Assembly: GCA_003599275.1 (NCBI GenBank)
Contig: QZJG01000024.1
Location: 1-40,053 of the forward strand
Source of the DNA: Nitrospiraceae bacterium
GTDB lineage: Bacteria > Nitrospirota > Thermodesulfovibrionia > UBA6902
Length of the DNA: 40,053 nucleotides
Direction of reading: 5' to 3'
Shown here piece after piece: positions 8,050 through 39,914 of the stretch. A program made the translations under genes and the position numbers. The stretch's first letter is position 1. Every line of letters starts with the position of its first letter. The notes under the pieces are model-generated. The model worked only from the letters and a program-made list of their open reading frames with translations. It was not told the origin of the DNA and did no database searches.

Positions 8050-8082
8050 AAGACGGACTCTTTCTGCAACCTGTTAAACAAA

Positions 8083-10812
8083 TTATTGAACAATGTCTGC
8101 ATTTTCCGGATTGACCCTCCCCCATGCAGGAAGCTCAACCCACTGCGACCCCGGCAAACCGAAGGGCAGCCCCGCAACACCGTCCGGCAGATCAGACATG
8201 AATTTGACCGGAAGGTTGTATGTCCTGCCGTTTAAAATTAATTTTATTTCTTCTCCCTCTTTGGTCCCTGTTCCCTTTAAGCCGCGCGGATTCAACGCAA
8301 GATAGGGTTTTGACGAAAGTTCCGCCACACCCGGAGAGATCACGCTCAATTCCTCCGAGCCGAATATGTGATAAAGAGGTACGACCAATATTTCGTTATC
8401 ATGGACATTGAAGGCCGCCGGGACAACCGTAAAATATGCAGGTCTTTCGATGTCCCCCGGCTCTATCAACCTCTTGCCCGTATCTCCGCCGCGCAGCGGC
8501 CCGTTGATCTCTCTCTGGAATTTATTGACTGCCTGCACCGAATTCCAGCCCGGCGACCAAAACCTGGGGATGAGCGGCGAAGGATGCCGGCCTTCGTACC
8601 CTTCCATCGAAAAGGAAAATGGGGCGTCCGTATCCTCTGGCGGTTTGGGCTCGTGCACAAGGAAATGTGAAAACATCGCAGTGCGCCCGCTATAGCGGTG
8701 CGGTTGTCTGGGGACCCTCATCCCTGTCTCGCGGTAAGTCGCGCCGGGGGCGATTTCGCGTACTTGTTTGAGTGAAGGAATCGCCTCCGTCATGGCGGCA
8801 GTAATATCATCGAGGGTTTTCCATTGCCCTGCCAATGGAATATGAGAGGCCGCCATCATGTCCCTCAGCCATTGCCTGCTCTCCTGTATATCGAGGCCGG
8901 GAATAAAGACCTGATAGAAACGCTGGGCGCGTCCCTCATTGTTTATGACCGTTCCCGTGGTCTCCGCAAACGAGCCTGCGGGAAGGATGACGTCGGCCTT
9001 TGCAGAGGTCTTTGTAAAGACGTGGTCTATCACTATGACGTTTTTGACTTTATCAAAGAAGCGGTCAAGCTGGGCGGCATCCACCCTCCTGTACAGGTCG
9101 TTCTCAAGGACAATGGCCGCATCAACCCTGCCTTCATCCGCTGCCTTCAGGGCCATGCCTATGCTGCTGCCTCCTATAAAACCCAGCCCCACGCTGTTGC
9201 ACTCAGGCATGGCAAAACAGAGCTGCGCCTTCCGTCCCTTTTCACATAATGCCCACGCTATGTTTGCGGCGGCATGTATTACCGCTTCACTGAGGCAGCC
9301 TGTTCCGGAAACTATCAGCGGCCTTCCCGCATTTCTCAATTCATCAGCTATGCGTTTTGCGAGTCCATGCACTTTTGAACTCAGTCCCGTGACCTCCGGA
9401 AGCTCATTGTTCAATTCGTGCGCTACGGCAAAACCGAGCCGCGCAATGTCATCAGGCGCGCCCCGGAAAGTCCCTGCGGCGATATCGTCAATCCCGGTCC
9501 CTGCCGGAGTGGCGATGAAGAGAGGGCCTCGTTCGCTTTGCATGGCAGCCCTGACCGCTGCATCATGCCAGTCCGGAATTTTCAGCCTCCTCTCCGCCTC
9601 CATCGGCCTCTGTCTCACCGACTGCCTGAGGGCAAGGCCGAGCATCGGCGCTGTATTCAGGACATCTTCTCCAAGCACAAACACCGCGTCCGATTTCATC
9701 ACGTCGTTTAAAGACGCCGAACGCGCAGGCCCTTTCTCCAATATTTTTATGATGGAGGAGATGAGTGCGTGTTCTTTTTCAGACATCCCGGAATAATAAT
9801 TTTCCGGGCCGACCAGCGAGCGCAGCGCAAAGTTTGCCTCAAGCGATGCGCGCGGAGAACCTATGCCGATCACCCTTGCGCCGAAGTGAAGGACGCCTGA
9901 GATATGTTCGAGGACCTCTTCACGTGAGACGGGAATAGCATCAACATTCCTCTCCGGGCGGACCAGGACCTGCGGGATGCGCCTCCCGCTGTTGACGAAC
10001 TCATAGCCGAAACGTCCCCGGTCGCACAGGAAATATCCGTTGACCTCACTGTTGTAGCGGTCCGATACGCGCCTCAGTTTTCCGTAACGTTCTCCGGGGA
10101 TGGTGTTGCATCCCAGACTGCAATGCACGCATACGGAAGGCGCGGTCTGCAGGTCCCATTTCCGTGTGTAATGTTTTTTCAGGGTCTTGTCCGTGAAGAC
10201 CCCGGTAGGGCAAACCTCCACTAAATTTCCGCTGAATTCACTCTGCAGGATACCGTCTTCGTGGCGTCCGAAGTAGACGTGGTCATGCGAGGCAAATACA
10301 TTCAGATCGCGGCCCCCGGCATAATCACGATAAAACCGGACGCAGCGGTAACACTGGATGCAACGGTCCATCTCGTGGTTGACAAAAGGGCCGAGATACT
10401 GGTTGCGGTATGTCCTTTTTTTGAAACGGTACCTGCGGTATGAATGGCCCGTCATTACCGTCATGTCCTGAAGGTGGCATTCACCTCCCTCGTCGCAGAC
10501 CGGACAGTCATGGGGATGGTTTAACATCAGCCATTCAATCACGCCTTTTCGGAAGGCCTTCGCCTCGGGATCGTCTATCGAGATGCGCGTGCCGTCCGCA
10601 GCAGGGGTCATGCATGACATGACTATCTTCCCCCTCGTGTCGGCTTCGTCTTTATACTGTTTCACCGCGCACTGCCGGCATGCGCCTACGGAATGCATCG
10701 CAGGATGCCAACAGAAATACGGAACGTTGAATCCCAGCGAAAGACATGCCTGCAAAAGGTCCTGCCCTTCTTTCACCTCATACGGTTTGTTGTCTATAAA
10801 AATTGTCGCCAT
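8083..10812 (-). CDS. nuoG: NADH-quinone oxidoreductase subunit G
   Basis: This 909-residue peripheral-arm subunit is the largest of complex I. The N-terminus carries the [2Fe-2S] ligands C34, C45, C48 and C67, then the N5 cluster ligands (H99, C103, C106, C112) and a [4Fe-4S] set (C151, C154, C157, C201). The extra N7 motif C228-x2-C231-x3-C235-x27-C263 is also present, as in E. coli and Thermus. The remainder is a molybdopterin-oxidoreductase-like fold without obvious cofactor function. Its ATG overlaps the nuoF stop codon by one base. Confidence 0.97.
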   Translation of the reverse strand: MATIFIDNKPYEVKEGQDLLQACLSLGFNVPYFCWHPAMHSVGACRQCAVKQYKDEADTRGKIVMSCMTPAADGTRISIDDPEAKAFRKGVIEWLMLNHPHDCPVCDEGGECHLQDMTVMTGHSYRRYRFKKRTYRNQYLGPFVNHEMDRCIQCYRCVRFYRDYAGGRDLNVFASHDHVYFGRHEDGILQSEFSGNLVEVCPTGVFTDKTLKKHYTRKWDLQTAPSVCVHCSLGCNTIPGERYGKLRRVSDRYNSEVNGYFLCDRGRFGYEFVNSGRRIPQVLVRPERNVDAIPVSREEVLEHISGVLHFGARVIGIGSPRASLEANFALRSLVGPENYYSGMSEKEHALISSIIKILEKGPARSASLNDVMKSDAVFVLGEDVLNTAPMLGLALRQSVRQRPMEAERRLKIPDWHDAAVRAAMQSERGPLFIATPAGTGIDDIAAGTFRGAPDDIARLGFAVAHELNNELPEVTGLSSKVHGLAKRIADELRNAGRPLIVSGTGCLSEAVIHAAANIAWALCEKGRKAQLCFAMPECNSVGLGFIGGSSIGMALKAADEGRVDAAIVLENDLYRRVDAAQLDRFFDKVKNVIVIDHVFTKTSAKADVILPAGSFAETTGTVINNEGRAQRFYQVFIPGLDIQESRQWLRDMMAASHIPLAGQWKTLDDITAAMTEAIPSLKQVREIAPGATYRETGMRVPRQPHRYSGRTAMFSHFLVHEPKPPEDTDAPFSFSMEGYEGRHPSPLIPRFWSPGWNSVQAVNKFQREINGPLRGGDTGKRLIEPGDIERPAYFTVVPAAFNVHDNEILVVPLYHIFGSEELSVISPGVAELSSKPYLALNPRGLKGTGTKEGEEIKLILNGRTYNLPVKFMSDLPDGVAGLPFGLPGSQWVELPAWGRVNPENADIVQ

Positions 10813-27589: not shown

Positions 27590-28333
27590 TCAAATCTGTT
27601 CAGAATTAGTATCTCTTATTTTCCAGAAACGTCTCGCAGCTAAAGTTGCGCCGCCCGCAATAAAGAGAATAATACTAACCGGCTCAGGAGTGACAACCAT
27701 TTTGCCTGAAACAGATCCGGCAGCATTGTCTGTAAACGCAGTGCCGCTGCCGGACGAACCGGAATTAAAGCTGAAATCCATACCAAGATTTATATAGCCA
27801 TGAGTGTTATAACTCGTCTCTAATTGTGTGATGTATGCAGATCCGTTTGCATTAAACGTTATATTGGTAAGATTGGACTTGGTATGGTCATACAATGGAT
27901 TCAACTGAGTTCCAAACAAACTATCAGTAATAACAAAATTGTTGAGTTGCGCAGTAAGGTAGGTTATTCCTCCATTAGAAATGGTAAAACTGACCGGACT
28001 GGTCGTACTTGCCGAGTAGGTGCCGTCGAATGTCAGATTAGCCGGACTCTTCTGGTTATAAAGAGTGCCGATTGAAAACGTTGCCCCAGTAACAGGGTCA
28101 CTCCCCTCACCAAAATAACTTCCGTCCAGATATTGCCCCCCGGTTATATTCCAGTTGGAGAAAGTGAGCTTGCATTTGCTCGCATTTCCACAATTACCAT
28201 TGGTATAAGAAAAACTACCCGCGAAATCCAACCAGGGGAAATAAAGAGTATCTGCTACCGCAATATTTGATAACAGAAAAATGCTCACGAATAAAACAAG
28301 AACTGCAACTTTATTCACAAGAGTCATTTTCAT
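27590..28333 (-). CDS. PEP-CTERM sorting-domain secreted protein
   Basis: The mature part (about 25-215) is beta-rich and of unknown function. The end is a PEP-CTERM signal: VVTPEPVSIILFIAGG, a hydrophobic helix and then ARRFWK. Such proteins are cut and anchored by an exosortase and usually go with exopolysaccharide. I use the ATG at 28333, which follows a GAGGAGG site by six bases, giving a clean signal peptide. No exosortase gene is in the window. Confidence 0.85.
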   Translation of the reverse strand: MKMTLVNKVAVLVLFVSIFLLSNIAVADTLYFPWLDFAGSFSYTNGNCGNASKCKLTFSNWNITGGQYLDGSYFGEGSDPVTGATFSIGTLYNQKSPANLTFDGTYSASTTSPVSFTISNGGITYLTAQLNNFVITDSLFGTQLNPLYDHTKSNLTNITFNANGSAYITQLETSYNTHGYINLGMDFSFNSGSSGSGTAFTDNAAGSVSGKMVVTPEPVSIILFIAGGATLAARRFWKIRDTNSEQI

Positions 28334-28556
28334 GATGAACCTCCTCGACGATTTTATAGCTGTCAATTAATAGAAAATTTAATATCAGGATAGTTATAGA
28401 TGACTATATTAAAAAATATTACAGGACTAATGTCAACTTTTTTATGATTTTTTATATGGGGTATAAGAATTTCATATTTGCCTTATTGCGCAAATAGTTA
28501 AGAAGCTTTTAGCATTTTAAACTTTGTACGTTTTGTATCATCGTCAAAAAACAGCC

Positions 28557-28593
28557 TTGACAAAAATATTGTCATATTCTAATATTTGAATAT
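28557..28593 (+). promoter_or_regulatory. Promoter with ArsR-type operator upstream of yedE-1
   Basis: TTGACA (28557-28562), 17 bases and TAATAT (28580-28585) form a near-consensus promoter. The -10 lies inside the palindrome ATATTC-TAATATTT-GAATAT (28574-28593), i.e. ATTC-N8-GAAT, the form reported for the sulfide-responsive ArsR-family repressor SqrR. A second palindrome, TGACAA-N5-TTGTCA (28558-28574), covers the -35. The layout predicts repression by steric block. About 50 nt of leader follows before the yedE-1 AAGGAG site. Confidence 0.75.
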
Positions 28594-28641
28594 AATAATA
28601 ATTGCACGAATAAATTTTATAATATTAACAAGGAGCTGAGA

Positions 28642-29829
28642 ATGACTCTTTCAAAATATTTCCATGAAAAACTATATATAAACCTTTTTGGAAAAAACTG
28701 GCCGATGTGGCTCGGCGCTGTTTTGATAGCATTTCTGAACATACTGATGTTTTTATTTCTAATGCCCTTTGGCGGCATATATCCGGCTATAGCGGACTGG
28801 GGCATATGGATTTACAGGCTTGCAGGACTGAACATAACCCCTCCATGGGGTACTTTAACACCGCCTCATCTGAGCATCATAAGTATTGTGAATGCGGGAT
28901 TGATATTAGGCACATTAAGTTCCGCCCTCCTTTCGCGACAATTTAAACTCAGAAAAGATTCAGCGTCCGGCTATATTCAGGGGTTTATCGGAGGGGCCTT
29001 GATGGGTATCGGCAGCTTCCTTGTCGGCGCGTGCATCTTTGGAGGTTTTTATTCATCGATCATGTCATTGTCCCTGAGCGGATTATACATGATGGCCGGA
29101 TTGCTTGGGGGCGCTTATCTTGGCGGGAAATTTATGATATGGCAGGCCGTCAGAGAGGCGGAAAAAATGGAATTTCCGGAGATCGCCGACCTGAAGACAA
29201 TCCCGGAGAAAAAGATCAGGAAGACGATTAATTATCCGTTATTGGGTATTGTTGTTACAATCACTTTATTCGTTTTGGCGTCAGTTTATTTTCTCACAGG
29301 AAAATATATCCTGGGGGGAATGCTCCTCTTCGGCGCAGCCTTTGGAATTGTCTTCCAGAGGTCCTCTTTCTGCATATCTGCCGGTTTCAGAGAAGTCTTC
29401 ACATCACGGCACAATGAGCCTATGCGAAACATTCTGCTCAGCCTCATGATAGGCGCCGTGGGATTTACGATCATAAAAGCAAACGGCTTCAGGCCTTCTG
29501 ATATGTTCGTCCTTCCGGCAGGCTTCCACAGCATTATAGGCGGAGCGGTTTTCGGATTCGGCATGGTCATAACAGGCGGCTGAGCGGCGGGCATGCTCTG
29601 GCGGTCCGCCGAGGGATATATAAGACACTGGTTCGCATTGCTTGGGGCCATGCTTGTTGCAGGCTTATGGGTGCCTCTTTATGGAGAGCAGGCGGGCAAC
29701 GGCCGGCTTTACGGCAAGACGATATTTTTACCTGACAAGTTAGGCTGGGGAGGGGCCTTGATCGGTATGCTGGCAATACTGTCGGCTTTCTACTTTTTTA
29801 TAACGTGGCTTGAACTTAAAAAGAAGTAG
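28642..29829 (+). CDS. yedE: YeeE/YedE-type sulfur/selenium transporter, selenoprotein (Sec314)
   Basis: This 395-residue membrane protein has about nine hydrophobic segments. An in-frame TGA at 29581-29583 is read as Sec314. Before it lies FGFGMVITGG and after it AAGMLWRSAEGYIRHWFALLG, then more membrane sequence to the TAG at 29829. The family normally has Cys at this TGGC position. C131 (GACIFGG) and C244 (SSFCISAG) are the other channel-lining thiols. Relatives import thiosulfate (YeeE) or are linked to selenium use (YedE). It opens module 1, 28 bases before dsrE. Confidence 0.9.
29596..29613 (+). promoter_or_regulatory. Bacterial SECIS element of yedE-1
   Basis: Starting 12 nt after the TGA, CTC-U-GGCG-GUC-CGCC-GAG folds into a 7-bp stem with one bulged U four pairs below a GUC loop; the loop begins 20 nt after the TGA. 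A bulged U and a G-U-containing loop are the SelB-binding features of E. coli fdhF mRNA. Confidence 0.8.
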
Positions 29830-29857
29830 TGATAAACCTGAACCAAAGGAGGACAGG

Positions 29858-30214
29858 ATGAGCAAGACCTTTACACTTTTATTAGGCACGTCGCCGTATT
29901 CTTATGAGAATACGCTCACGACAGTGAAGATCGCTGAAGCCGCCCTGAATAAAGGGCATACGGTCAACGTCATTGCATCAGGCGACGGGATTTACTGTTT
30001 CCTGAAAGGGCAAAAGGCAAAGGGCATAACCAATGCGGAAGAGAAATTCTCGGAGCTTATCCGGAAGGGCCTGAGGGTATATCTCTGAGGCGGGTGTCTC
30101 AACTTTCGCCGTGCGGTGAAAGATGATTATCTCGATAACGCGGAAGTCGGCACACTCAAGGGTCTTTTTAAGACGATGGGTGAAACCGATGTCTGGCTGA
30201 ATATGGGGGCATAA
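29858..30214 (+). CDS. dsrE: DsrE/TusD-like sulfurtransferase subunit, selenoprotein (Sec77)
   Basis: This 118-residue protein has a DsrE-type fold: TFTLLLGTSPYSYENTLTTVKIAEAAL, then VNVIASGDGIYCFLKGQ. A TGA at 30086-30088 is read as Sec77, then GGCLNFR and 34 further residues to TAA. The position equals the active-site Cys of TusD/DsrE (Cys78 in E. coli TusD), which carries persulfide. C80 follows, making a U-x-x-C pair. An AAAGGAGG site precedes the ATG. Gene calling would end it at the TGA. The genes after it encode DsrF- and DsrH-like partners. Confidence 0.88.
30103..30122 (+). promoter_or_regulatory. Bacterial SECIS element of dsrE
   Basis: CTTTCGCC-GTGC-GGTGAAAG gives an 8-bp stem (one G-U pair) with a four-base loop starting with G. 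The loop begins 23 nt after the TGA at 30086. This distance and loop are as expected for a bacterial SECIS. Confidence 0.7.
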
Positions 30215-30236
30215 GTCCACACAATGGGTAACAAGA

Positions 30237-30360
30237 CAGGAAATAGTATTTGCGCTCATTCTCGTCCCGACATATGGGGACTCCGAGGTTTTTGCCTCTT
30301 GATAATTAAAATGTTTAGAAGGACTATCGGCAAAAGAAACCGCTTAAATACTATTTCCTG
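30237..30360. repeat. 124-base element with 15-bp perfect inverted ends (dsrE-dsrF gap)
   Basis: CAGGAAATAGTATTT (30237-30251) is repeated exactly inverted at 30346-30360. Between them two small hairpins are visible (GTCCC ... GGGAC and GAGG ... CCTC). It fills most of the 186-base gap between dsrE and dsrF and has no coding capacity. It may be a MITE or an intercistronic RNA structure that changes the relative expression of DsrE and DsrFH. Confidence 0.6.
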
Positions 30361-30400
30361 CCTTCCGATTCAATTCATGATCAAGGGATAGGAGGAAGTC

Positions 30401-30754
30401 ATGGGAAAAATTGCAATTATTCTGAGAAGGTCGCCATATGGTGACATAAACGCAGCCGAGGCTGTGAGGCATGCCCTGGGAGGCGCTGCGGATGAGCTGG
30501 GCGTTGACCTCATTCTTGTTGACAGCGGGGTCCTTCTGGCAAAGCAGGGACAGGACGATACGGACACGGGCTTTACGAATCTGGGGAATGTGCTGACGGA
30601 CTGCATTGAGATGGGCGTTGATATATATGCAGATAAGCATTCAATCAGAGAACAGGATATGGATACGGCTGATATCCCCGAAGGGATCAAGATAGTAAAC
30701 GGCCCCGAGATCGCCGAAATTATTAAAAATGCAAAGACAACAATGATTTATTAA
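30401..30754 (+). CDS. dsrF: DsrF/TusC-like protein
   Basis: This 117-residue protein of the DsrE/F superfamily starts GKIAIILRRSPYGDINAAEAVRHALG and has a Rossmann-like alternation; its only Cys is in NVLTDCIEMGVDIYADK. In Allochromatium-type systems DsrF is the inactive partner of DsrE in a DsrE2F2H2 hexamer that moves persulfide sulfur between TusA and DsrC. Here the active subunit would be the Sec protein upstream. A GGAGG site precedes the ATG; dsrH follows after 10 bases. Confidence 0.8.
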   Translation: MGKIAIILRRSPYGDINAAEAVRHALGGAADELGVDLILVDSGVLLAKQGQDDTDTGFTNLGNVLTDCIEMGVDIYADKHSIREQDMDTADIPEGIKIVNGPEIAEIIKNAKTTMIY

Positions 30755-30764
30755 GGAGGTCATC

Positions 30765-31046
30765 ATGTTTGTGATTGTCAAAAGCGGGCCTGAAACTCAG
30801 GATGGGAAGAGAGGTGTAAAACTGGCAAGAGACATGGGCGCGGATTTATGCCTGGTCCAGAACGCGGTATACTTTGCTCAAAAGGAGAGACTTGAAGGTT
30901 TTTGCGGGACGTTATATGCCCTTGAAGATGACTTGAGGCTGAGGGGTTTGAAAGACGATGAATTAGAGAAGGAAACAAAAAAATTAGGGTATGTCGGCCT
31001 CGTTGAGATAATGGCCGATGAAGATAAAGTAGTCGGGATGTTTTGA
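30765..31046 (+). CDS. dsrH: DsrH/TusB-like protein
   Basis: This 93-residue protein starts MFVIVKSGPET and has the DsrH/TusB layout, with LVQNAVYFAQ and LYALEDDLRLRGL, a segment in which TusB/DsrH carry the conserved sulfur-relay residue. Cys at LCLVQN and GFCGTL are candidates. It completes a DsrEFH-type set with a perfect AAGGAGGT site. No DsrC, DsrAB or rhodanese gene is visible in the window. Confidence 0.78.
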   Translation: MFVIVKSGPETQDGKRGVKLARDMGADLCLVQNAVYFAQKERLEGFCGTLYALEDDLRLRGLKDDELEKETKKLGYVGLVEIMADEDKVVGMF

Positions 31047-31049
31047 GAT

Positions 31050-31112
31050 AGCAGTTAGTAGCAAATAGTTAGTAGTTAAGGGTAGTCATTACCCTTACTG
31101 ACTGCTTGCTGC
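31050..31112. repeat. Palindromic heptamer array between dsrH and sqr
   Basis: Heptamer units (TAGTAGC, AAATAGT, TAGTAGT and so on) lead into AAGGGTA-GTCAT-TACCCTT (31078-31096), and the inverted units CTGACTG and CTTGCTG follow. The whole 60-base gap can fold into one imperfect hairpin, ending just before the sqr AAAGGAGG site. Confidence 0.7.
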
Positions 31113-31135
31113 TTTTATGAAAAAAAGGAGGCAAT

Positions 31136-32323
31136 ATGGCAAAAATAGTAATTATAGGCGGGTCTTTCGGAGGTTTGACGGCGGGTTTTGAACTCAAGAG
31201 ACTTCTCGGCAATAAAGCAGAAGTGACGCTGCTATGCGATACCGACAAATTTGTCTTTGTCCCTTCCCTTCCCTGGGTATCAATGGGCTGGAGAAGACCC
31301 GAAGATATAACAATAGGACTTGAAAAAATTCTTGCCGCCGGGGGCATAAGATTTTTTCCTGAAGCGGCAGTTGGAGTGGATGCGGACGCAGCGAAGGTCA
31401 TAACAGCGGCGCATGAATTTCAATACGACTACCTTGTCATTGCTACCGGGCCTGACCTTGGTTTTTCATCAGTTCCCGGGTTTGGTCCATATGGCGGACA
31501 TACGGAATGTATCTTCACCCTTGATCAGGCCTTGAAAACAAAGAAAGCATGGGACAGGTTTCTTGAAAACCCGGGACCCATTGCTGTCGGAGCGGTCCAG
31601 GGTGTAAGCTGTTTCGGGCCTGCCTATGAATATGCGTTTGAGGTGGACACTGAGTTGAAAAGGAGAAACATCCGGCACAGGGTCCCTATTACATTTGTCA
31701 CCTCTGAACCATATATAGGCCATTTCGGGATCGGAGGGCTGAAAAAATCCAGAAGTATTATGGAAGATGAATTTGCGGACAGGGAGATTAAGCTGATTAC
31801 AAATCAGTCAGTGGAGGAATTTACGCCGGACGAAGTCAGACTTAAAGACGGGACAAAACTCCCTTTCAAACTCGCAATGTTTGCCCCCCCGATGGCAGGG
31901 GTCAAGGCAGTTTTTCATCTCGGCAACCCAAAGGGTTTTATTCCTGTTGATGCTAATTACCGCCATAAGAATTACAAGAATATCTTTTCTGTTGGAGTTG
32001 CGATAGCAATAGCACCTCCGGAACAGACACCCGTGCCAACGGGCGTGCCGAAGACCGGCTACATGACTGAACATATGGCAAAATACGCGGCTGAAACTAT
32101 AGCGTCGGAGGTCCTCGGAAAATCTTTGCCGAAAACCGGGCCTGTCGGGGCGCTATGTATTATGGATATGGGAAATACGGCGGCATTGATGAAGGCATAT
32201 CCCGTACTTCCGCCAAGAAAGACAGCGGAGCTTAAAGAAGGTAAAAGATACAGATGGGCGAAGCTTGCATTCGAAAAATATTATCTCTGGAAGATCAGGA
32301 GAGGTTTAACCGGTCTTCCTTAA
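31136..32323 (+). CDS. sqr: Sulfide:quinone oxidoreductase-type flavoprotein
   Basis: This 395-residue FAD enzyme starts with the dinucleotide fold IIGGSFGGLTAG. It has three Cys spaced like the catalytic set of SQR: C125 (HTECIF), C159 (GVSCFGPAYE) and C341 (ALCIMDMG); the Aquifex enzyme uses C124, C156 and C347. PKTGYMTEHMAKYAAE is the conserved quinone-site segment. It would oxidise sulfide or a persulfide and pass electrons to quinone. It closes module 1; the RND gene starts 18 bases later. Confidence 0.9.
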   Translation: MAKIVIIGGSFGGLTAGFELKRLLGNKAEVTLLCDTDKFVFVPSLPWVSMGWRRPEDITIGLEKILAAGGIRFFPEAAVGVDADAAKVITAAHEFQYDYLVIATGPDLGFSSVPGFGPYGGHTECIFTLDQALKTKKAWDRFLENPGPIAVGAVQGVSCFGPAYEYAFEVDTELKRRNIRHRVPITFVTSEPYIGHFGIGGLKKSRSIMEDEFADREIKLITNQSVEEFTPDEVRLKDGTKLPFKLAMFAPPMAGVKAVFHLGNPKGFIPVDANYRHKNYKNIFSVGVAIAIAPPEQTPVPTGVPKTGYMTEHMAKYAAETIASEVLGKSLPKTGPVGALCIMDMGNTAALMKAYPVLPPRKTAELKEGKRYRWAKLAFEKYYLWKIRRGLTGLP

Positions 32324-32341
32324 AACCAGGTGGAGGTCGTC

Positions 32342-34693
32342 ATGCGTAAATTTTCCCTTGTTCACTTCTCCGTAAACCACCCTAAGTCAGTTGTGCTTCT
32401 GACAATTCTCATTACCCTCGTCTTCATGACCCGGTTCCCCAGGATAACAACTGACACAAATCCGAAACACATGCTCCCCGCAAACTCGGACGTGAGGGTC
32501 TGGAACGACGAAGTCGACAGTACATTCGCGCTGTACGAGGACATGATAGTTCTTGGAATCGTCAATGAAAAAGGCATTCTCAATAAAGATACTCTCGGAA
32601 AAATTCAGAGGATAACGGACGAAATACTGAATATTAAAGGAGTCGCCGCAAGGGATGTAAACAGCTTCCCGACTATCACCAATGTAACGGCGGAACAGGG
32701 CGTCCTGAAAGTAGCGCCCCTCATGACAAAAATTCCGGAGAGCGACGCAGAGGTCGGGTCCCTCGGTAAAATGCTTTATGAGAATCCCCTTTTCATCAAC
32801 CGCATAATCTCGAAAGACGGCAAAACTACAGCCATATATGTCCCGCTTGAGAAGGACGCAAACGGCAAAGAAGTAGCGGACAAAATAAAAGAGATTGCCG
32901 GCAAAGAGAAAGGCGATGAAAAATATTACGTTGCAGGAGACCCTGTCGCACGCGACACCTTCGGCGCCGAGATGTTCAAGCTCATGGCGGTATTTGCGCC
33001 GATAGCCGGGATGGTCATGCTTATTGTGAGATACCTTATGTTCAGGGACCTTTTCCTCTCCGTCACGCTCATGATGGACGCGATGGTCAGCATCATCTGG
33101 AGCATGGGGCTTTTAATAGCGTTTGGATTTCCTGTCCACATTATGAGCTCGATGGCGCCTGTCTTTCTGATGGCAATCGCGACCGACAGCATACATATCT
33201 TCAATGAGTTTTATTTCCGCTACAAAGAGAAGAAAGATAAAAAGACGGCGATCATTGAAACAATGAATGCCGTGAGCCGTCCCGTGCGTTATACCGCTCT
33301 TGCAACGGCAGTGGGTTTCGGCGTGCTCCTGTTCATGAATATCATACCCGTCAAGGTCTTTGGCGGGCTCGTCGCATTCGGCACTGTAATGTTGAGAGTC
33401 TTAAGCTTCAGTTTCATCCCCGCGATGTTCACTTTTGTGAATGAAGAAAAGATCGAGAAGGCGTCAAGGAGCGAGGACATTGAATTCAGCAGGACCTCAC
33501 AATTGCTGAAAAGCCTTGCCGGTTTTGGCACGCATAAACCAAAGGCCACGGTCTTTGCCGGTCTTATACTTTTTGTAATAGCGATCATCGGGCTGACAAA
33601 GATAGTAGTCAACAACAACATGGTGGAGTGGTTTAAAAAAGACAGCGAGGTGCGCATTGCCGACAGAGTTATGAATCAGGCCCTCGGCGGCACGTCTCTC
33701 GGCTACATAGTGGCGCTGTCAAATGAAGACGGCTTTATAAAGACACCCGAAGCCATGAGGTATATTGAAGGACTTCAAAGACATCTGGAGAAACTTCACA
33801 TAGTCGGGAAGACGAGCTCGGTTGCAGATTATGTAAAGAGAATAAACCTTGTCCTGCATGATAATGACCCGAAATATGACGCGGTCCCTGACACAAAGGA
33901 GACAATCGGTCAGTATCTGTTTTTGTTCGGCATGTCTGCAAAGCCGTCTGATCTGGACAATGTTGTTGACTATCCGTTCAGAAAAGCAAATATCTGGGTC
34001 CAACTGAAGACGTGGGACGCCCAGGCAATGAGAGATGTCATAGAGGCGACGGACGAATATAAGAAGTCTCACCCTGTTCCGATGGAATTTAAACCGGCGG
34101 GCATCGCCTATTTTAATCTCGTATGGAATGATGAGGTCCTCTACGACATGCTGAGGGGATTTATTATTGCGTTGATCGTGGTGTTTCTTATCCTTGTAGT
34201 TAACTTCCGGTCAGTAAAATGGGCGATCGTCGGATATACCCCTCTTCTATTTACAATACTGCTCATTTACGGCGTCGTAGGTTACATCGGCAAAGACTTT
34301 GACATGCCGATATCCGTGCTTTCATGTCTCAGTCTCGGCATGGCCGTGGACTTTGCAATACATTTTATAAGCAGGTTCAGGCAACACTTAAGTGAGAAGT
34401 CAGAAGTGAGAAGTCAGAAGTCAGAAGATGCTAAAAATCTCGTCACCGACGCTTTATTATGGACCGCGGCGCGACCCGGAAAGGGCATAATGCGCAATGC
34501 CGTGCTCTTTGCCGCTTCCTTTGCCGTGATGATGTTTGCATCTCTTACGCCGTATATCACGGTAGGCGCATTCATTGTCAGTATGATGCTGCTCAGCGCA
34601 ATAATGACTATAATTTATGTGCCTGCGCTTATAACGTTATTGCAGGGATGGTTGTTTTGTGATAAATGTGAGGGAGGAAAAAATAAATTTTAA
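32342..34693 (+). CDS. RND/MMPL-superfamily exporter
   Basis: This 783-residue protein is built as two halves of one helix, a large periplasmic loop and about five helices each, as in COG1033-type predicted exporters and hopanoid HpnN. IATDSIHIFNEFYFRYKEKKDKKTAI and LGMAVDFAIHFISRFRQHL are the paired charged loops. I use the ATG at 32342 after a GGAGG site. A heptamer insertion at 34391-34427 adds SEKSEVRSQKSED to the cytoplasmic loop of the second half. Substrate is unknown. It sits with a LolA-like and an outer membrane protein. Confidence 0.88.
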   Translation: MRKFSLVHFSVNHPKSVVLLTILITLVFMTRFPRITTDTNPKHMLPANSDVRVWNDEVDSTFALYEDMIVLGIVNEKGILNKDTLGKIQRITDEILNIKGVAARDVNSFPTITNVTAEQGVLKVAPLMTKIPESDAEVGSLGKMLYENPLFINRIISKDGKTTAIYVPLEKDANGKEVADKIKEIAGKEKGDEKYYVAGDPVARDTFGAEMFKLMAVFAPIAGMVMLIVRYLMFRDLFLSVTLMMDAMVSIIWSMGLLIAFGFPVHIMSSMAPVFLMAIATDSIHIFNEFYFRYKEKKDKKTAIIETMNAVSRPVRYTALATAVGFGVLLFMNIIPVKVFGGLVAFGTVMLRVLSFSFIPAMFTFVNEEKIEKASRSEDIEFSRTSQLLKSLAGFGTHKPKATVFAGLILFVIAIIGLTKIVVNNNMVEWFKKDSEVRIADRVMNQALGGTSLGYIVALSNEDGFIKTPEAMRYIEGLQRHLEKLHIVGKTSSVADYVKRINLVLHDNDPKYDAVPDTKETIGQYLFLFGMSAKPSDLDNVVDYPFRKANIWVQLKTWDAQAMRDVIEATDEYKKSHPVPMEFKPAGIAYFNLVWNDEVLYDMLRGFIIALIVVFLILVVNFRSVKWAIVGYTPLLFTILLIYGVVGYIGKDFDMPISVLSCLSLGMAVDFAIHFISRFRQHLSEKSEVRSQKSEDAKNLVTDALLWTAARPGKGIMRNAVLFAASFAVMMFASLTPYITVGAFIVSMMLLSAIMTIIYVPALITLLQGWLFCDKCEGGKNKF
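34391..34427. repeat. In-frame heptamer repeat inside the RND exporter gene
   Basis: Units AGTGAGA and AGTCAGA alternate for about 5.3 copies. Because 7 is not a multiple of 3, translation cycles through different residues (SEKSEVRSQKSED). It lies in a loop between membrane segments where an insertion would be tolerated. Confidence 0.85.
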
Positions 34694-34706
34694 TTGGAGG
34701 TTTAAG

Positions 34707-35495
34707 ATGAAACGATATTTGATTGCATTGCTCATAGTGCTTTTGCCTCTCAGCGCGTCCGCCCTTACCGCAGATGAGGTAATGAAGAAATCACAGGCCG
34801 CATTTCTTTATCAGGGCAAAGACTTCAAGGCAAGGGTAATGATGAAGCTGATAAGCAAAAGCGGTCAGGAGCGGGTCAGGGAGCTTACCATGCTGAGAAA
34901 AAACTACGGCGCATCCGGCGGCGAGCAGAAATATTTCATGTATTTCTTCCAGCCTGCCGACGTGAAAGACATGACATTCATGGTGAACAAATATCCTGCA
35001 AAAGACGATGACAGATGGCTCTTCGTCCCCGCAATAAACATGGTCAGAAGAATCGCCGCGCAGGACAAGAGCTCAAGCTTTGTCGGCTCTGATTTCACCT
35101 ATGAAGATGTTTCGGGAAGGGACATAGAAGACGATACACATGAGATTGTGAAGGAAGAAAAGCTCGCAGGGAAAGACTGTTATGTAATTAAAAGCTCTCC
35201 AAAGGCGGGCGATGTGGATTACAGTTACAAACAATCATGGATTGATAAGGCTGATTTCCTGCCGGTGAAGGAAGAATATTATGATAGAAGAGGCGAGCTT
35301 TACAGGGTGTTCACCGCTGAAGAAATTAAAGAAATGAAAGGGTTCCCGACCGTTACAAAAAGGACCATGAAAAATCTTCAGAGCGGTCACAGGACAGAAG
35401 TTACATATTTGAAAGCGGATTACAACATCGGCATTGAGGACAGCCTTTTTTCAGAAAGATTTCTCAAGCAGCCGCCGAAGAAATGGATTGAATGA
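34707..35495 (+). CDS. LolA-like periplasmic protein (outer-membrane lipoprotein-sorting family)
   Basis: This 262-residue secreted protein has a signal peptide (MKRYLIALLIVLLPLSASALT). Its beta-sheet pattern, with the segments MLRKNYGASGGEQKYFMYFFQPADVKDMTFMVN and WLFVPAINMVRRIAAQDKSSSFVGSDFTYEDVSG, is that of COG2834 proteins which often accompany RND exporters. I start at the ATG at 34707, which follows a GGAGG site. It may carry a lipid or lipoprotein across the periplasm for the exporter. Its stop overlaps the next gene (ATGA). Confidence 0.82.
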   Translation: MKRYLIALLIVLLPLSASALTADEVMKKSQAAFLYQGKDFKARVMMKLISKSGQERVRELTMLRKNYGASGGEQKYFMYFFQPADVKDMTFMVNKYPAKDDDRWLFVPAINMVRRIAAQDKSSSFVGSDFTYEDVSGRDIEDDTHEIVKEEKLAGKDCYVIKSSPKAGDVDYSYKQSWIDKADFLPVKEEYYDRRGELYRVFTAEEIKEMKGFPTVTKRTMKNLQSGHRTEVTYLKADYNIGIEDSLFSERFLKQPPKKWIE

Positions 35496-36781
35496 AAAAA
35501 CAGAGCAGCAGAGCAACAGAGCAGCAGAGCAGCAGGTCACTGCTCTGCTGGATTATTGTTCTACTGGTCTCCTGCTCTACTGTTCCGCCTTCTTCATACG
35601 CATCCGATATCTCATTTCACGGCTTCCTTCAGGGTAATTACTCCTTCAATACGGACTCATCAAATCCTGACGGTAAGGACATGAAATGGGCTGAGGAGAG
35701 ATTGCAGTTGAAACTTGATGCGAGAAAAGACCCGTTGAACTTCTTTATAAAAGCCGATGCTTTTTATGATCATATCGACGACGCATCACATCTGGAGTTA
35801 AGAGAAGGATATGCCGATTTCACGTCTTCAAGCTATGATCTGAGGATCGGAAGGCAAATTATCACGTGGGGGCTTGGCGATTTGATTTTCATCAATGATG
35901 TATTCCCAAAAGACTACGAGGCGTTCTTTTCCGGAAGACCTCTGGAGTATCTGAAAAAGGGAATTGACGGCATCAAGCTCGGCATGTACCCGTCCTTTGC
36001 CTCCGCCGAATTGATTATCATCCCTTTTTTTGAACCGAACAATTTTCCCGATCCAAAGAGATTCCATATGTTCGACCCGATGCCGCTCATAACAAAGAGA
36101 GAGGAAGAAAAGCCTGCAAGTACTTTCGACAACACCGAGATTGCTTTCAGAATGTACCGTGATGTAGCAGGCTTTGATGCGTCATTATATTATTATCGCG
36201 GTTTTTTCAGGCAGCCCTCCATGCTTCCTGACAGCATGACTGCGCCGTCAAAAATCACGTTATTTTATCCAGAACTCTCGGTCTATGGAGCAAGTCTTCA
36301 GGGCAGGATGCTTGACGGTGTTGTAAGTTTTGAAGCAGGCCATTACGATTCGAGAGAAGACAGAGACGGCACAGACCCGATGACTCCAAATTCACAGACA
36401 AAATTTCTCATCGGTTATCAGAGACAATTATGGGAAGACTTCACCATCGGCTTACAGTATTTTGGAGAATACATGCATGATTATTCCGAATATGAAAAGA
36501 ATCTTCCGTCAGGGTTCCCGCAGGAAAAGAAATATCATGACCTTGCCTCTGCAAGACTTACACAGTTTCTGATGCACCAAACCCTGAGGCTTTCCTTCTT
36601 TGCTTTTTACAGTCCGTCATATGAAGACTACCTGCTGAATCCGGAAATTAAATATAATTTCTCCGATTCTGTATGGGCAGCGACAGGCGCAAACATCTTC
36701 GGCGGGGGAGAGGAATGGGACCAGTTCGGACAATTGGACAAGAACGATAATATTTATTTGCAGATGAGATATGAGTTTTAA
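35492..36781 (+). CDS. Outer-membrane beta-barrel protein (DUF1302-like)
   Basis: The 429-residue protein has alternating amphipathic strands from about residue 40 to the end and a terminal Phe (MRYEF), as in outer membrane barrels. The strand pattern and motifs such as LREGYADFTSSSYDLRIGRQIITWGLGD resemble DUF1302-type proteins found with RND exporters. Its signal peptide (residues 1-37) is largely encoded by an octamer repeat array. Function would be export through the outer membrane; substrate is unknown. Confidence 0.8.
   Translation: MKKQSSRATEQQSSRSLLCWIIVLLVSCSTVPPSSYASDISFHGFLQGNYSFNTDSSNPDGKDMKWAEERLQLKLDARKDPLNFFIKADAFYDHIDDASHLELREGYADFTSSSYDLRIGRQIITWGLGDLIFINDVFPKDYEAFFSGRPLEYLKKGIDGIKLGMYPSFASAELIIIPFFEPNNFPDPKRFHMFDPMPLITKREEEKPASTFDNTEIAFRMYRDVAGFDASLYYYRGFFRQPSMLPDSMTAPSKITLFYPELSVYGASLQGRMLDGVVSFEAGHYDSREDRDGTDPMTPNSQTKFLIGYQRQLWEDFTIGLQYFGEYMHDYSEYEKNLPSGFPQEKKYHDLASARLTQFLMHQTLRLSFFAFYSPSYEDYLLNPEIKYNFSDSVWAATGANIFGGGEEWDQFGQLDKNDNIYLQMRYEF
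35501..35589. repeat. Octamer array with inverted second half, forming the signal-peptide code
   Basis: Four octamers of CAGAGCAG/CAGAGCAA (35501-35532) are followed, after CAGGTCAC, by units of the reverse sense (TGCTCTGC, TGGATTAT, TGTTCTAC, TGGTCTCC, TGCTCTAC, TGTTCCGC). The result is a large imperfect hairpin that sits within the first 33 codons of the barrel gene. Confidence 0.8.
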
Positions 36782-36783
36782 TC

Positions 36784-36825
36784 TTGACACTTAACTTCAC
36801 ATATATGCTAATATCTGCATATATG
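36784..36825 (+). promoter_or_regulatory. Promoter with ArsR-type operator overlapping the arsR start codon
   Basis: TTGACA (36784-36789) and an extended -10, TGC-TAATAT (36806-36814), lie 19 bases apart. The -10 falls inside ATATGC-TAATATCT-GCATAT; the arms extend to a perfect 9 bp (36800-36825, ending on the ATG). Core and -10 placement match the site at 28574-28593. Transcription would start at about the ATG, so the arsR message may be leaderless. Confidence 0.75.
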
Positions 36826-37164
36826 AATAATTTGGGTTCAAGAATTGAAATCCTTAAACTCATTGCTCATCCGGCGAGAATTGCCATCCTGGATGAACTC
36901 GCAAAAGGCGTAAAGTGTGTAAGCGACCTTGAGGAATTTCTTGAACTGAGCCAGTCCAATGTCTCACAACATCTTTCCGCTCTGAAACATTCAGGCCTTA
37001 TCGATTACTTCATCGACGGACGCCTCAGATGTTACTTTCTGAAAAATCCTCTTGTTCCCGATATTCTTGCTATCCTTAAAAAAGATTATCCGTCTCAACT
37101 ACCCGGTCCTGAATGTTGTCCGGTCACCAAAAAAGGAAAGTATCATGGTGAAAGAAAAAGATAG
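36823..37164 (+). CDS. ArsR/SmtB-family transcriptional repressor
   Basis: This 113-residue winged-helix protein contains IAHPARIAILDELAKG and the recognition helix LSQSNVSQHLSALKHSGLI. Cys are at C32 (KCVSDLEEF, at the first Cys site of the ArsR ELCVCDL motif), C70 (RLRCYF) and C98-C99 (GPECCP). This differs from the Cys placement of BigR/SqrR persulfide sensors, so the inducer (persulfide, selenium species or a metalloid) is uncertain. The start is the ATG at 36823; upstream TTG would fall in the promoter. yedE-2 follows after 18 bases. Confidence 0.9.
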   Translation: MNNLGSRIEILKLIAHPARIAILDELAKGVKCVSDLEEFLELSQSNVSQHLSALKHSGLIDYFIDGRLRCYFLKNPLVPDILAILKKDYPSQLPGPECCPVTKKGKYHGERKR

Positions 37165-37182
37165 ATTTTAAGGGAGGCAATA

Positions 37183-38367
37183 ATGACTCTTTCCGAATAT
37201 TTTCATGACAATATTTACGCAAAGCTCTTTGGAAAGACATGGCCAAAATGGATCGGCGGTCTATTGCTGGCTTTCCTGAACATATTGTTTTTCCTTTATG
37301 TAATGCCTCTCGGCGGAATCTATCCTGCAATTGCCGATTGGGGCATATGGATATACAGGCTTGCAGGCGTAAACATTGAGCCGCCGTGGGGCTCTCTGGA
37401 AGTCCCCTGGTTAAGCCTGACATCTGTTTTAACTGTCGGCTTGATATTCGGGGTCTTTATTTCAGCGCTGTTATCAAAACAGTTTAAATTCAGAAGAGAT
37501 ACAAGGGGCGGTTATATACAGGCCTTTCTCGGTGGGACATTAATGGGCGTCGGAAGCTTCCTCGCAGGGGCTTGCATCATAGGCGGCTTTTATTCATCCG
37601 TTATGTCTTTATCGTTTAGCGGTTTTTATATGATGACCGGGCTGATAGCGGGAGGTTATTTCGGCGGTAAGCTGATGATATGGCAAGGACGCAGAAAGGC
37701 CCAAAAAATTGTGCTGGATATCAAACCCGTGCCCAAAGATCCGGTCCGGAAAGAATACAAATCCAGCCAGCCGAAATACGGGGTAATTGCGCTGTTTATT
37801 ATGTTCGTTATCGCAGCAGCTTATTTTTTTGCCGGTAAAAACATTCTCGGTGGGGTGTTTCTTTTCAGCGCGGTCTTCGGGATCGTCTTTCAAAGGTCTG
37901 CCTTTTGTATAACTGCGGCATTCAGGGAAATTTTCACCACCAGGAGTAACGAAATGATGCGCAGCCTTATGCTCAGTCTTATGATCGGAGTTACAGGATT
38001 CAGCATCATTAAGGCAAATGGTTTCAGGGCCGCAGACATGTTTGTCCTTCCGGCCGGTTTGCACAGCATTGCCGGCGGCTTGTTATTTGGGTTCGGTATG
38101 GTAATAACAGGGGGTTGAGTGGTCGGCATCCTCTGGCGGTCAGCCGAGGGATATACCAGACACTTTATTGCGATACTTGGGACCATGGTTGCAGCAGGCT
38201 TATGGGTCCCGATTTATGGTTTTAAAGTAGGGGAAGGCCCGCTTTACGGAAAGGCGCTGTTTTTACCTGACATGTTCGGCTGGGGCGGCGCTTTAATGCT
38301 CACCTTGGTAATCCTGATATTTTTCTACTTCTTTGTTACATGGCTTGAAATCAGAAAAAAGACTTGA
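37183..38367 (+). CDS. yedE: YeeE/YedE-type sulfur/selenium transporter, selenoprotein (Sec312)
   Basis: This 394-residue paralogue of the protein at 28642 shares nearly all helices and the same first 70 residues in pattern. TGA at 38116-38118 is read as Sec312 in TGG-U-VVGILWRSAEGYTRHFIAILG, and the frame continues with membrane sequence to the TGA stop at 38365. C131 (GACIIGG) and C242 (SAFCITAA) are in equivalent positions to the first copy. A GGGAGG site precedes the ATG. Conservation of Sec in both copies argues against a random stop mutation. Confidence 0.9.
38130..38149 (+). promoter_or_regulatory. Bacterial SECIS element of yedE-2
   Basis: CTC-U-GGC-GGUCA-GCC-GAG gives a stem with a bulged U and a GGUCA loop; the flanking C38130-G38149 pair extends it. 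The loop begins 20 nt after the TGA. E. coli fdhF has a bulged U and a GGUCU loop, an almost identical arrangement. Confidence 0.85.
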
Positions 38368-38417
38368 GATGAATTTGAAATACGATATCCGAATTTAAAG
38401 TAAAGGGGGTGATAATA

Positions 38418-38654
38418 TTGCCTGACCACTTTGAAGTGGACATAAGGAACACTATGTGACCGTATCCCAAATATGTTATTCCACAAGTTTTGGAAAAACT
38501 TGCAAAAGCGGAAAAAGGTACAAGTGTGGATGTCTTTGTGGACTGCCCGTCTGCCATAGACGAGATACCGGGCATTTTAAGCAAAGAAGGATACACCGTC
38601 AACACAACACAGATCGGCGACGGTGAATATAGAATAAGGGCTGAGAAACAGTAA
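38418..38654 (+). CDS. tusA: TusA-like sulfur carrier, selenoprotein (Sec14, UPYP motif)
   Basis: This 78-residue protein is invisible to ordinary gene calling. It starts with TTG at 38418, seven bases after a GGGGGT site. TGA at 38457-38459 is read as Sec14, giving U-P-Y-P in place of the catalytic CPxP of TusA, which carries persulfide sulfur. The rest has TusA length and pattern: alpha helix (PQVLEKLAKAEKG), strand VDVFVDCPSAIDEIPGIL (E. coli: LLIIADDPATTRDIPGF), helix and last strand YRIRAEK. C43 in DCP is an extra thiol. An SQR-like gene follows after 9 bases. Confidence 0.88.
38484..38502 (+). promoter_or_regulatory. Bacterial SECIS element of tusA
   Basis: CAAGTTTT-GGA-AAAACTTG is a perfect 8-bp stem with a GGA loop. 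The loop begins 32 nt after the TGA. Loop size, a G at its start and distance fit a bacterial SECIS; no bulged U is seen, unlike in the two yedE genes. Confidence 0.7.
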
Positions 38655-38663
38655 GGAGGAAAC

Positions 38664-39914
38664 ATGCCGGCAAACAGCAGGACAATAATTGTTTTAGGCG
38701 CAGGGGTGGGAGGGCTTGTAACGGCGAATGAACTCAGGAAAAGATTAAGTAAAGAGCACACTGTCATCCTCATCGACAAATCAGAAGAGCATATTTCCTA
38801 TTCATCGGCGCTGTGGGTGGCCATCGGGGAGCGCGGGCAGGAAGAGATCAAAAAAGATGTTTCACGATTAACGCGTGAGGGGGTCGATTTTGTACAGGAT
38901 GAAATACAAAAAATCGACCTTGCCGGCAAGATTGTAAAGACGTCAAAAAGAGATCTCCGTTACGATTACCTCGTTATTTCTCTCGGAGTTTCATTAGCTC
39001 CTGAAACCGTGCCGGGTCTTACCGAAGCCATGAATAAAAACGCCTTCAACTTCTACACCCTTGACGGGATATTGAAGGCAAAAGACGCCCTCAATAATTT
39101 TTCGAAAGGCAACCTGATTATTATGGTCTCCGCCCTCCCCTACAAATGCCCGGTTGCCCCAAACGAATTTTCTCTCCTCCTGAATTCCTTTTTCACCAAA
39201 AGAGGCCTGAGGAAAGACATCAACATTAAGGTATGCACGCCGGAAGTCCTTCCTATGGGAGGAAACGGGCCCAAGACCGGGAGCATTGTAAAAGGCCTGA
39301 TGGAAAGCGCCGGAGTAGAGTACAAGTCGCAGCACGCCGTACAGGCTGTTAACTCAGACAAAAATGAAATAGTTTTCGACAAAGGCACGATGAATTATGA
39401 TCTGCTTCTGGTCATCCCTCCTCACAAAGCGCCGAAGGTGATTGTCGAAGCAGGACTGGCTGAACCGGACTGGGTGCCTGTAGACAAAAATACCCTGAAA
39501 ACGAAATTCGATAACGTCTACGCGATAGGCGATAACGCAAAGGTGAAACTGCCGGGTGAATGGAAACAGGGCATGCCTTTGATGCTTTCCAAAGGAGGGG
39601 TTTTCGCGCATTACGAAGCAAAAGTTATCGCGGAAAATATCGCCAATGAAATTCTGGGCAGCAAAGAGAGGGTGGAATATACCGGACGGGCAGCATGCTT
39701 TGTCGAGACAGGCTTCGGAAAGGCCGGGCTTGCGCAGGGATATTTCTTCACAACGCCCACGCCGAACACTGTTTTCCTGAAACCGTCACGTATATTACAC
39801 CTGAGCAAGATCATGTTTGAAAAATACTGGCTCTCCGAATCAGCGCTGTTCAGAGGCATCATGAATTTTTTCATGGAAAACTGGATGTACGGAGAATATA
39901 AGAGAAGGGGTTAA
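38664..39914 (+). CDS. SQR-like FAD/NAD(P)-type flavoprotein
   Basis: This 416-residue flavoprotein has the FAD site VLGAGVGGLVT at the start and YAIGDNA near 286-292. It has C162 in ALPYKCPVAPNE, C191 and C345 (AACFVETG); the first Cys of classical SQR (the C125 equivalent) is missing. It belongs to the SQR/FCSD superfamily but is distinct from the copy at 31136. It could oxidise a persulfide carried by TusA. The C-terminus has amphipathic sequence for membrane attachment (FMENWMYGEYKRRG). AAGGAGG precedes the ATG. Confidence 0.85.
   Translation: MPANSRTIIVLGAGVGGLVTANELRKRLSKEHTVILIDKSEEHISYSSALWVAIGERGQEEIKKDVSRLTREGVDFVQDEIQKIDLAGKIVKTSKRDLRYDYLVISLGVSLAPETVPGLTEAMNKNAFNFYTLDGILKAKDALNNFSKGNLIIMVSALPYKCPVAPNEFSLLLNSFFTKRGLRKDINIKVCTPEVLPMGGNGPKTGSIVKGLMESAGVEYKSQHAVQAVNSDKNEIVFDKGTMNYDLLLVIPPHKAPKVIVEAGLAEPDWVPVDKNTLKTKFDNVYAIGDNAKVKLPGEWKQGMPLMLSKGGVFAHYEAKVIAENIANEILGSKERVEYTGRAACFVETGFGKAGLAQGYFFTTPTPNTVFLKPSRILHLSKIMFEKYWLSESALFRGIMNFFMENWMYGEYKRRG

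Follow-up and report, generated by a model that had tools for sequence, protein, structure and literature searches.

A predicted selenocysteine-containing variant of the YedE-TusA-DsrEFH sulfur-transfer system in a Nitrospiraceae genome

Within a 40,053-nt stretch of contig QZJG01000024.1 from a Nitrospiraceae bacterium (the window), we studied the locus at positions 28,557-39,914, which encodes two YeeE/YedE membrane transporters (yedE1 and yedE2), a DsrE-family and a TusA-family sulfur carrier, DsrF, DsrH and two sulfide:quinone oxidoreductases (SQR1 and SQR2). Four of these genes, yedE1, dsrE, yedE2 and tusA, contain an in-frame TGA codon, and sequence comparisons indicate that all four codons are real and almost certainly specify selenocysteine (Sec). 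Since YedE, TusA, DsrEFH, SQR and dsrA are present and three hand-over residues are predicted to be Sec, we read the locus as a Sec-armed version of the yeeE/yedE-tusA-dsrEFH sulfane-sulfur system of dissimilatory sulfur bacteria, termed YTD or DsrEFH type II, and assign this reading a probability of about 0.6. A first-pass annotation of the same DNA had proposed a Sec-armed sulfur relay; the sulfur-relay reading, Sec at the key cysteines and the complete Sec machinery held up, but not the role given to SQR or the novelty of the gene combination.

Conservation of the in-frame TGA codons

The first TGA (29581-29583; Sec314) lies in yedE1 (28642..29829; Pfam PF04143, 3.4e-41), which ends in a true TAG stop, and the second (30086-30088; Sec77 in a UGGC motif) in dsrE (29858..30214; PF02635, 1.1e-16). 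The third (38116-38118; Sec312) interrupts yedE2 (37183..38367; NCBIfam YedE models), whose true stop is also TGA, and the fourth (38457-38459; Sec14 in a UPYP motif) interrupts tusA (38418..38654; PF01206, 3.2e-11), which has a TTG start. All features of the locus are on the forward strand. As noted at first pass, every one of these codons is in frame and has recognizable protein on both sides: the Pfam matches of YedE1 (Sulf_transp), DsrE and TusA span the TGA, and NCBIfam matches, the only comparison made for YedE2, indicate the same there.

An open reading frame listing under the standard code interrupts all four genes at the TGA, which speaks for true stops arising from truncated genes or assembly errors. 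We regard this explanation as exceedingly improbable, given that the same TGA recurs in separately named metagenome-assembled genomes (MAGs) and is followed by purifying selection and conserved hairpins. The aligned column is TGA in 18/18 full-length rows of the YedE subfamily (16 loci plus yedE1 and yedE2 of the window), in 7/7 rows of a first DsrE alignment and 38 of the 39 distinct rows of a wider set (the other has TGC), and in 6/6 TusA rows, with L052 one column off owing to an alignment gap (L, G and C numbers are our handles for loci, genomes and contigs). Relative to the congener L051, identity before and after the TGA is 84% and 86% for YedE1 and 93% and 93% for DsrE; two more distant DsrE rows drop after the codon, L057 from 58% to 48% and L058 from 62% to 42%. 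Counted against 3-4 close orthologues per gene, post-TGA differences at codon positions 1/2/3 number 53/7/131 in yedE1, 13/4/30 in dsrE, 69/33/119 in yedE2 and 12/10/86 in tusA, a bias toward third positions in all four genes. Stops or pseudogenes were rejected on the alignment of the TGA in relatives and on this bias beyond it; true stops followed by unrelated sequence were looked for in the relatives, where the TGA and the protein beyond it are conserved instead. A reassigned genetic code was rejected because TGA is the ordinary stop of 10/28 window genes with listed ends, yedE2 included.

The Sec machinery, a search for which had been set beforehand as a test, was found in full in the source genome (G000; 3.05 Mb, 88.6% completeness): selA and selB on contig C37, selD on contig C27, and tRNA-Sec (selC) at 72.4 bits, exceeding the cut-off. 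The selD gene (G000:C27 5354-6268, L018) has one in-frame TGA of its own.

Homologues have Cys at the Sec site of YedE, TusA and DsrE, the last in one Cys homologue (L213, 60% identity), bearing out the exchange that the first-pass annotation had proposed to check. Six Nitrospirota YedE rows at ~33% identity carry TGC at the site, and TGC or TGT is found in 45/45 YedE-like loci from other groups (a named collection, L119-L163). A scripted motif scan showed TGA in 12/13 named Nitrospirota YedE loci; the 13th, L112, has a variant motif missed by the script pattern and lies on the contig of L058, where TGA is present.

SECIS-like hairpins downstream of the TGA codons

Hairpins resembling selenocysteine insertion sequences (SECIS) had been described for all four genes, a claim that is well supported for YedE and DsrE and weak for TusA. 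In yedE1, the predicted fold CUC-U-GGCG-GUC-CGCC-GAG (29596..29613) presents GGUC at 29603-29606; the yedE2 hairpin (38130..38149) has GGUC at 38138-38141. Flanked by short complementary arms, GGUC occupies nt 20-23 after the UGA in 18/18 Sec-YedE rows, and it is at that place in 0/6 Nitrospirota Cys-YedE rows and 0/4 rows from the Cys pairs described below. For comparison, the GGUC of E. coli fdhF is at nt 19-22 after its UGA.

The dsrE hairpin (30103..30122) is indicated by arm pairing and a peak of codon conservation. Across 37 distinct rows, 88.9% of cells are paired versus 47-58% with one arm slid, a comparison favored by the derivation of the structure from the window's own sequence. Among 2000 shuffles, the observed value was reached by 0 for the paired percentage, 5 for pairs with a double change, 0 for cells with such a change and 1164 for extra pair types. 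Synonymous-codon identity among 28 full-length genes peaks over the hairpin, at 0.80 in codons 82-88 versus 0.47 overall. For tusA, a possible SECIS-like hairpin (CAAGUUUU-GGA-AAAACUUG, 38484..38502) reaches -5.9 kcal for a 47-nt stretch; in L052 and L053, whose TusA is more divergent, a hairpin with a GGUC loop is present.

Predicted Sec at sulfur-transfer positions

Alignment with Cys homologues, TsuA and YchN places Sec at the key Cys position of the family at all four sites, as the first-pass annotation had stated. A PDB profile comparison shows that YedE and TsuA of Spirochaeta thermophila have their two halves in opposite order, with YedE1 Sec314 corresponding to Cys91, Cys131 to Cys293 and Cys244 to Cys22 (residue numbers were hand-counted from the profile alignment). 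The TsuA residues C293, C91 and C22 form a line in which the CPxP cysteine of TsuB, C17, comes fourth (PMC11073785; the papers cited by PMC number were covered in part, and what we attribute to them applies to those parts). With its UPYP motif, TusA has Sec14 at the CPxP cysteine position, matching TsuB C17. The five best Foldseek matches of a predicted YedE1 model (confidence score pLDDT 81) were TsuA or TsuA-TsuB (probability 1.00, E 0.01-0.03, TM score 0.44-0.49, identity 16-18%); despite the probability of 1.00 for TsuA, this search gave no match below E 0.001. In YchN, the residue aligned with DsrE Sec77 is the leading Cys of a CxxC, and the predicted DsrE model (pLDDT 88) resembles the YchN and DsrEFH folds. 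A PPR protein that was the top match of DsrE in the PDB profile search was taken as spurious. Among the three transport cysteines that lie in line in YedE/TsuA, it is the second that Sec replaces by alignment; in TusA/TsuB it is the CPxP cysteine, and in DsrE the first cysteine of the CxxC.

Cysteine counterparts in a second phylum

We also surveyed 345 genomes of a second phylum, entered via a Desulfuromonadales MAG. A close Cys-TusA (CPYP) is present in 4/345, each directly after a Cys-YedE that is 43-46% identical to the window YedE. All four of these pairs have Cys in both genes; therefore, the pair is Sec/Sec in Nitrospirota and Cys/Cys there. YedE at E≤1e-40 was found in 57/345 of the genomes, two of which contain a TGA: in L259 it is at the same YedE site, in a GUGSG motif followed by hairpin-like sequence, and in L260 it lies elsewhere in YedE, with Cys at the Sec site. 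In a tree built from 45 YedE rows, all 18 Sec rows from Nitrospirota fall together (94/87), beside the four Cys-pair rows. The tree requires at least two Cys/Sec changes, although the program cautions that it could be misled by long branches.

Gene content of the locus and its relatives

Downstream of dsrE lie dsrF (TusC-like, 30401..30754; Pfam DsrE; DsrF 2hy5_B 3.9e-6; TIGR03010 33.8 bits, below the cut-off of 94.15) and dsrH (TusB-like, 30765..31046; Pfam DsrH 8.1e-9; TIGR03011 42.6 bits, below the cut-off of 49.2). SQR1 follows (31136..32323; SQR 3hyv 1.7e-97), and by profile alignment its Cys159 and Cys341 both match Cys residues of 3hyv, which we take to be the SQR of Aquifex and these residues its catalytic pair. 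The run continues with an RND/MMPL (HAE3-like) transporter (32342..34693; Pfam MMPL; TIGR00921 178.9 bits, below the cut-off of 351.9), a LolA-like lipoprotein-sorting protein (34707..35495; PF17131 4.6e-66) and a putative outer-membrane protein with a weak DUF1302 match (35492..36781; PF06980 5e-5, 22.9 bits against a cut-off of 23.2). An ArsR-family regulator (36823..37164; PF01022) precedes yedE2; its four cysteines (Cys 32, 70, 97 and 98) are kept in 24/24 aligned orthologues including that of the window, and 4/27 scanned loci had no match at threshold. The window TusA is a single 78-residue domain, and its gene is followed by that of SQR2 (38664..39914; NF049943 284.7 bits against a cut-off of 525; SQR 8dhk 2.6e-28), a type III-like SQR with Cys162 and Cys345 and no Sec that is nearest to type III and mitochondrial SQR. 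The genome also encodes dsrA, which scored 528.8 bits, over its cut-off.

The distribution in the phylum was surveyed in 395 Nitrospirota genomes, and that within the genus of the window in ten genomes. DsrE matches at E≤1e-23, counted by hand, number 103, of which 99 contain the TGA and four do not. In 20 loci fetched across the phylum on the basis of the DsrE match, some of which end at contig edges, DsrE-DsrF-DsrH is found in 20/20, ArsR in 16 (L212 adds a broken copy), SQR1 in 13 (L211 adds a fragment) and an RND gene in 12 (L211 adds fragments). We rejected the idea that the RND set is a chance neighbor on this recurrence beside DsrEFH in 12/20. Sec-YedE is rarer in the phylum than Sec-DsrE, with a close YedE (E≤1e-25) in 11/395 genomes and the TGA in 7/11, and Sec-TusA is confined to the genus of the window among the matches listed. 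Congeners show the order ArsR-YedE(U)-[TusA(U)]-DsrE(U)-DsrF-DsrH-SQR1-RND-LolA-outer-membrane protein (L051, L053 and L054, and L052 to its contig end). In L057, the Sec triple falls within 2.5 kb, as ArsR-DsrE(U)-DsrF-DsrH-YedE(U)-TusA(U)-type III-like SQR-TauE. The genes yedE, tusA and dsrE are contiguous with two further small genes in L057, L052 and L053, and split in the window.

A Sec-armed sulfur relay and competing functions

The published DsrEFH type II model has SQR forming polysulfide, a YeeE-like protein moving sulfane sulfur, TusA accepting it and DsrEFH passing it to DsrC and DsrAB (PMC13293266). In a Sec-armed version, the SQRs would oxidize sulfide to polysulfide, with electrons going to quinone, and sulfur from polysulfide or thiosulfate would enter via YedE along Cys131, Sec314 and Cys244. 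Sec14 of TusA could then capture it as a selenenyl-persulfide and hand it to Sec77 of DsrEFH, from which it would pass to DsrC/DsrAB. The cysteine-rich ArsR might activate the set in response to reactive sulfur, and Sec may speed each hand-over and protect the carrier from dead-end over-oxidation. The first-pass annotation had SQR oxidizing the product of the relay; given the published model (PMC13293266), we consider it more likely that SQR supplies polysulfide to the relay. The identity of the cargo as sulfur, its inward movement and the gain in speed or in protection from over-oxidation through Sec are our inferences. A cargo of sulfur rather than selenium is probable, and inward movement with delivery to Dsr is slightly favored.

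Several observations weigh against this assignment. Sec-YedE is patchy within the genus (at least 6/10 genomes among the matches listed), and Sec-TusA, on the same basis, occurs in at least 4/10, including G006 (L052, L056). In the window, tusA adjoins yedE2, ~8 kb from dsrE, and ArsR stands before yedE2, not yedE1. The weak TusA hairpin leaves two sequence groups to compare, and an Rfam scan matched no RNA family at the locus. By sequence, the window DsrE has no significant similarity to A. vinosum DsrE (E 1.4), such that this link rests on fold. Cys244 is missing in 3/18 Sec-YedE rows (L058-L060) and in 6/6 Nitrospirota Cys rows, such that a wire of strictly three steps does not hold throughout. 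Finally, the nearest NCBIfam names are selenium ones, selen_YedE_FdhT for YedE and YedF for TusA, both below cut-off.

These names favor a role in selenium handling, in which YedE would import or export selenium and Sec-TusA and Sec-DsrE would deliver it to SelD, a role that has been put forward for YedE/YedF (FdhT/FdhU). YedE has been linked to SelD-bearing genomes (PMC5322559), and a Sec carrier made only when selenium is present has a logic that suits detoxification. The cut-offs of the selenium families were missed throughout, however: YedE1 scored 140.2 bits against 350 for NF033796 and 30.4 against 200 for TIGR04112, and TusA 39.1 against 79 for PRK11018. The locus also has no sel gene, these being on the C37 and C27 contigs, and a TGA-free YedE (L073) is found ~2 kb from selD in the same genome. 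Across the phylum, the partners are DsrEFH and SQR, and a yedE-tusA pair with Cys in both genes exists in the second phylum. We thus consider a selenium role quite unlikely, and selenium, which the first-pass annotation had allowed as an alternative cargo, less likely than sulfur.

A second competing function is reactive-sulfur detoxification, in which a persulfide-sensing ArsR would induce SQR, the carriers and an RND/LolA/outer-membrane exporter against sulfide and polysulfide, with YedE as a safety route rather than a part of energy metabolism. The ArsR with its four invariant cysteines resembles the sulfur sensors SqrR and BigR, and BigR regulates genes for a persulfide dioxygenase and YedE/YeeE (PMC12170894), which counts for such a function, as does the RND gene accompanying DsrEFH in the 12/20 fetched loci. 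Its weight is lessened by the putative nature of any role of RND in sulfur export and by the ties of DsrEFH type II to Dsr-based sulfur oxidation, both in vitro and by co-occurrence (PMC13293266), and overall we deem detoxification unlikely as the function of the locus.

Returning to the Sec-armed YTD system, a fuller proposal would be that three consecutive Sec stations (YedE, TusA and DsrE) carry sulfane sulfur from the membrane to Dsr, that YedE and TusA were converted from Cys to Sec together, that Sec-TusA is a family missing from the inventory of selenoproteins, and that Sec-DsrEFH is the usual sulfur transferase of Thermodesulfovibrionia and neighbors, overlooked because gene callers stop at TGA. 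We give this combination even odds.

Relation to known systems

The YTD or DsrEFH type II systems described previously, including those of cable bacteria (PMC13293266, PMC13047784, PMC12998232), share with the locus a YedE-like transporter, TusA, DsrE with DsrF and DsrH, an SQR as the likely sulfide oxidizer, and dsrA. The combination of yedE, tusA and dsrE(FH) is thus not unprecedented, contrary to what had been suggested at first pass; with the YTD system and the predicted Sec-YedE and Sec-DsrE families already known, the new part is Sec at the transfer cysteines. The locus differs in that Sec serves as the transfer residue in YedE, in TusA and in DsrE, in carrying ArsR, SQR and the RND/LolA/outer-membrane set in the same gene run, and in the split of the window genes into yedE1-dsrEFH and yedE2-tusA. 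We call it a variant rather than a member because DsrE has Sec instead of the conserved functional Cys. The window DsrE matched no NCBIfam model, and DsrF and DsrH fell below the TusC and TusB cut-offs. According to a survey of DsrEFH, 99.3% of sequences have the functional Cys, and sequencing errors were suggested for the remainder (PMC13293266); judging from its methods, its input was predicted proteins, where genes with a TGA would be truncated. There is a current debate over sulfur oxidation versus disproportionation as the role of YTD/DsrEFH type II, with counts that rest on predicted proteins (PMC13293266, PMC12998232). No word starting with "selen" occurs in the main texts of PMC13293266, PMC13047784 and PMC12998232.

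An inventory of 119 prokaryotic selenoprotein families includes Sec-DsrE-like (UxxC) and Sec-YeeE/YedE (GUxSG) proteins (PMC13188914). The UGGC of the window DsrE fits the former. The GUGSG of L259 fits the latter, and the window Sec is at the same site as in L259; the window motif, by contrast, reads GUxxG rather than GUxSG, and in the tree the Nitrospirota rows group apart. TusA/SirA has no entry in the parts of the 119-family table covered, and neither word is in the main text (PMC13188914). Sec-TusA was likewise absent from the titles and abstract openings of the literature searched, a scope outside which lie supplements, preprints and most subscription journals, and it is apparently a selenoprotein family not yet listed.

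TsuA-TsuB (YeeE-YeeD), the thiosulfate uptake system of Spirochaeta thermophila and E. coli (PMC11073785), shares with the locus the fold, the cysteine positions and a TusA-like partner encoded adjacently, but the window YedE has its halves swapped, Sec is at the positions of Cys91 and the CPxP Cys, and identity is 16-18%. The YedE1 scores for the TsuA/YeeE models of NCBIfam were also below cut-off (NF052577, 90.2 bits against 400; NF041049, 75.6 against 645). The YedE/YedF (FdhT/FdhU) selenium genes share a family resemblance, with weak model scores; they differ in that the locus is below their cut-offs and has no sel genes, and in that TusA is a single domain rather than a SirA-DsrE fusion.

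If Sec-DsrE does extend across much of the phylum, and Sec-YedE and Sec-TusA across one genus, surveys at the protein level would cut these genes short or lose them, and their counts of the pathway would be too low; ordinary gene calling shortens the proteins and can miss them. What selenium adds to sulfur transfer is a long-standing question of selenium biology, and the Cys/Cys yedE-tusA pair of the second phylum provides a natural Cys/Sec swap for gauging the gain.

Other YedE loci and further observations

Cys and Sec versions of yeeE-tusA seem to coexist in the source genome, as a TGA-free yeeE lies beside a Cys-tusA (CPHP) at G000:C8 4547-6277 (L227); the gene that follows is presumably UspA-like. 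A third, divergent Sec-YedE is encoded at G000:C70 444-1601 (L061), in a group that includes L062-L066 and whose loci yielded no relative of tusA or dsrE. The L061 gene adjoins what we take to be 2-oxoacid:ferredoxin oxidoreductase-like genes, and those of L063 and L065 are near genes that are presumably groEL-like.

Among the relatives, L057 has a 158-aa PrdB/GrdB-like protein (2032-2508) and a TauE/SafE transporter (2637-3425) after the Sec triple. In L211 (G052, 6943-8634), ArsR-DsrE(U)-DsrF-DsrH is intact and the SQR1, RND, LolA-like and outer-membrane genes are fragmentary, as if the operon tail had decayed. Near the Cys-DsrE of L213, an SQR2-like gene (4065-5195, reverse strand) is interrupted by a TAG that precedes a conserved Cys by one codon; sequencing error, decay or recoding are possible reasons.

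In the window, the gap between dsrE and dsrF (30215-30400) spans 186 bases, compared with ~10 in L051, L052 and L054 and ~95 in L053. It carries an imperfect 38-nt inverted repeat (76%; arms 30233-30270 and 30327-30364) resembling a small mobile insertion, and among the loci fetched no other genome had the core motif of this repeat. Upstream of the locus, a protein without a Pfam match is encoded on the reverse strand (27590-28366), with a C-terminal tail that we take to resemble PEP-CTERM.

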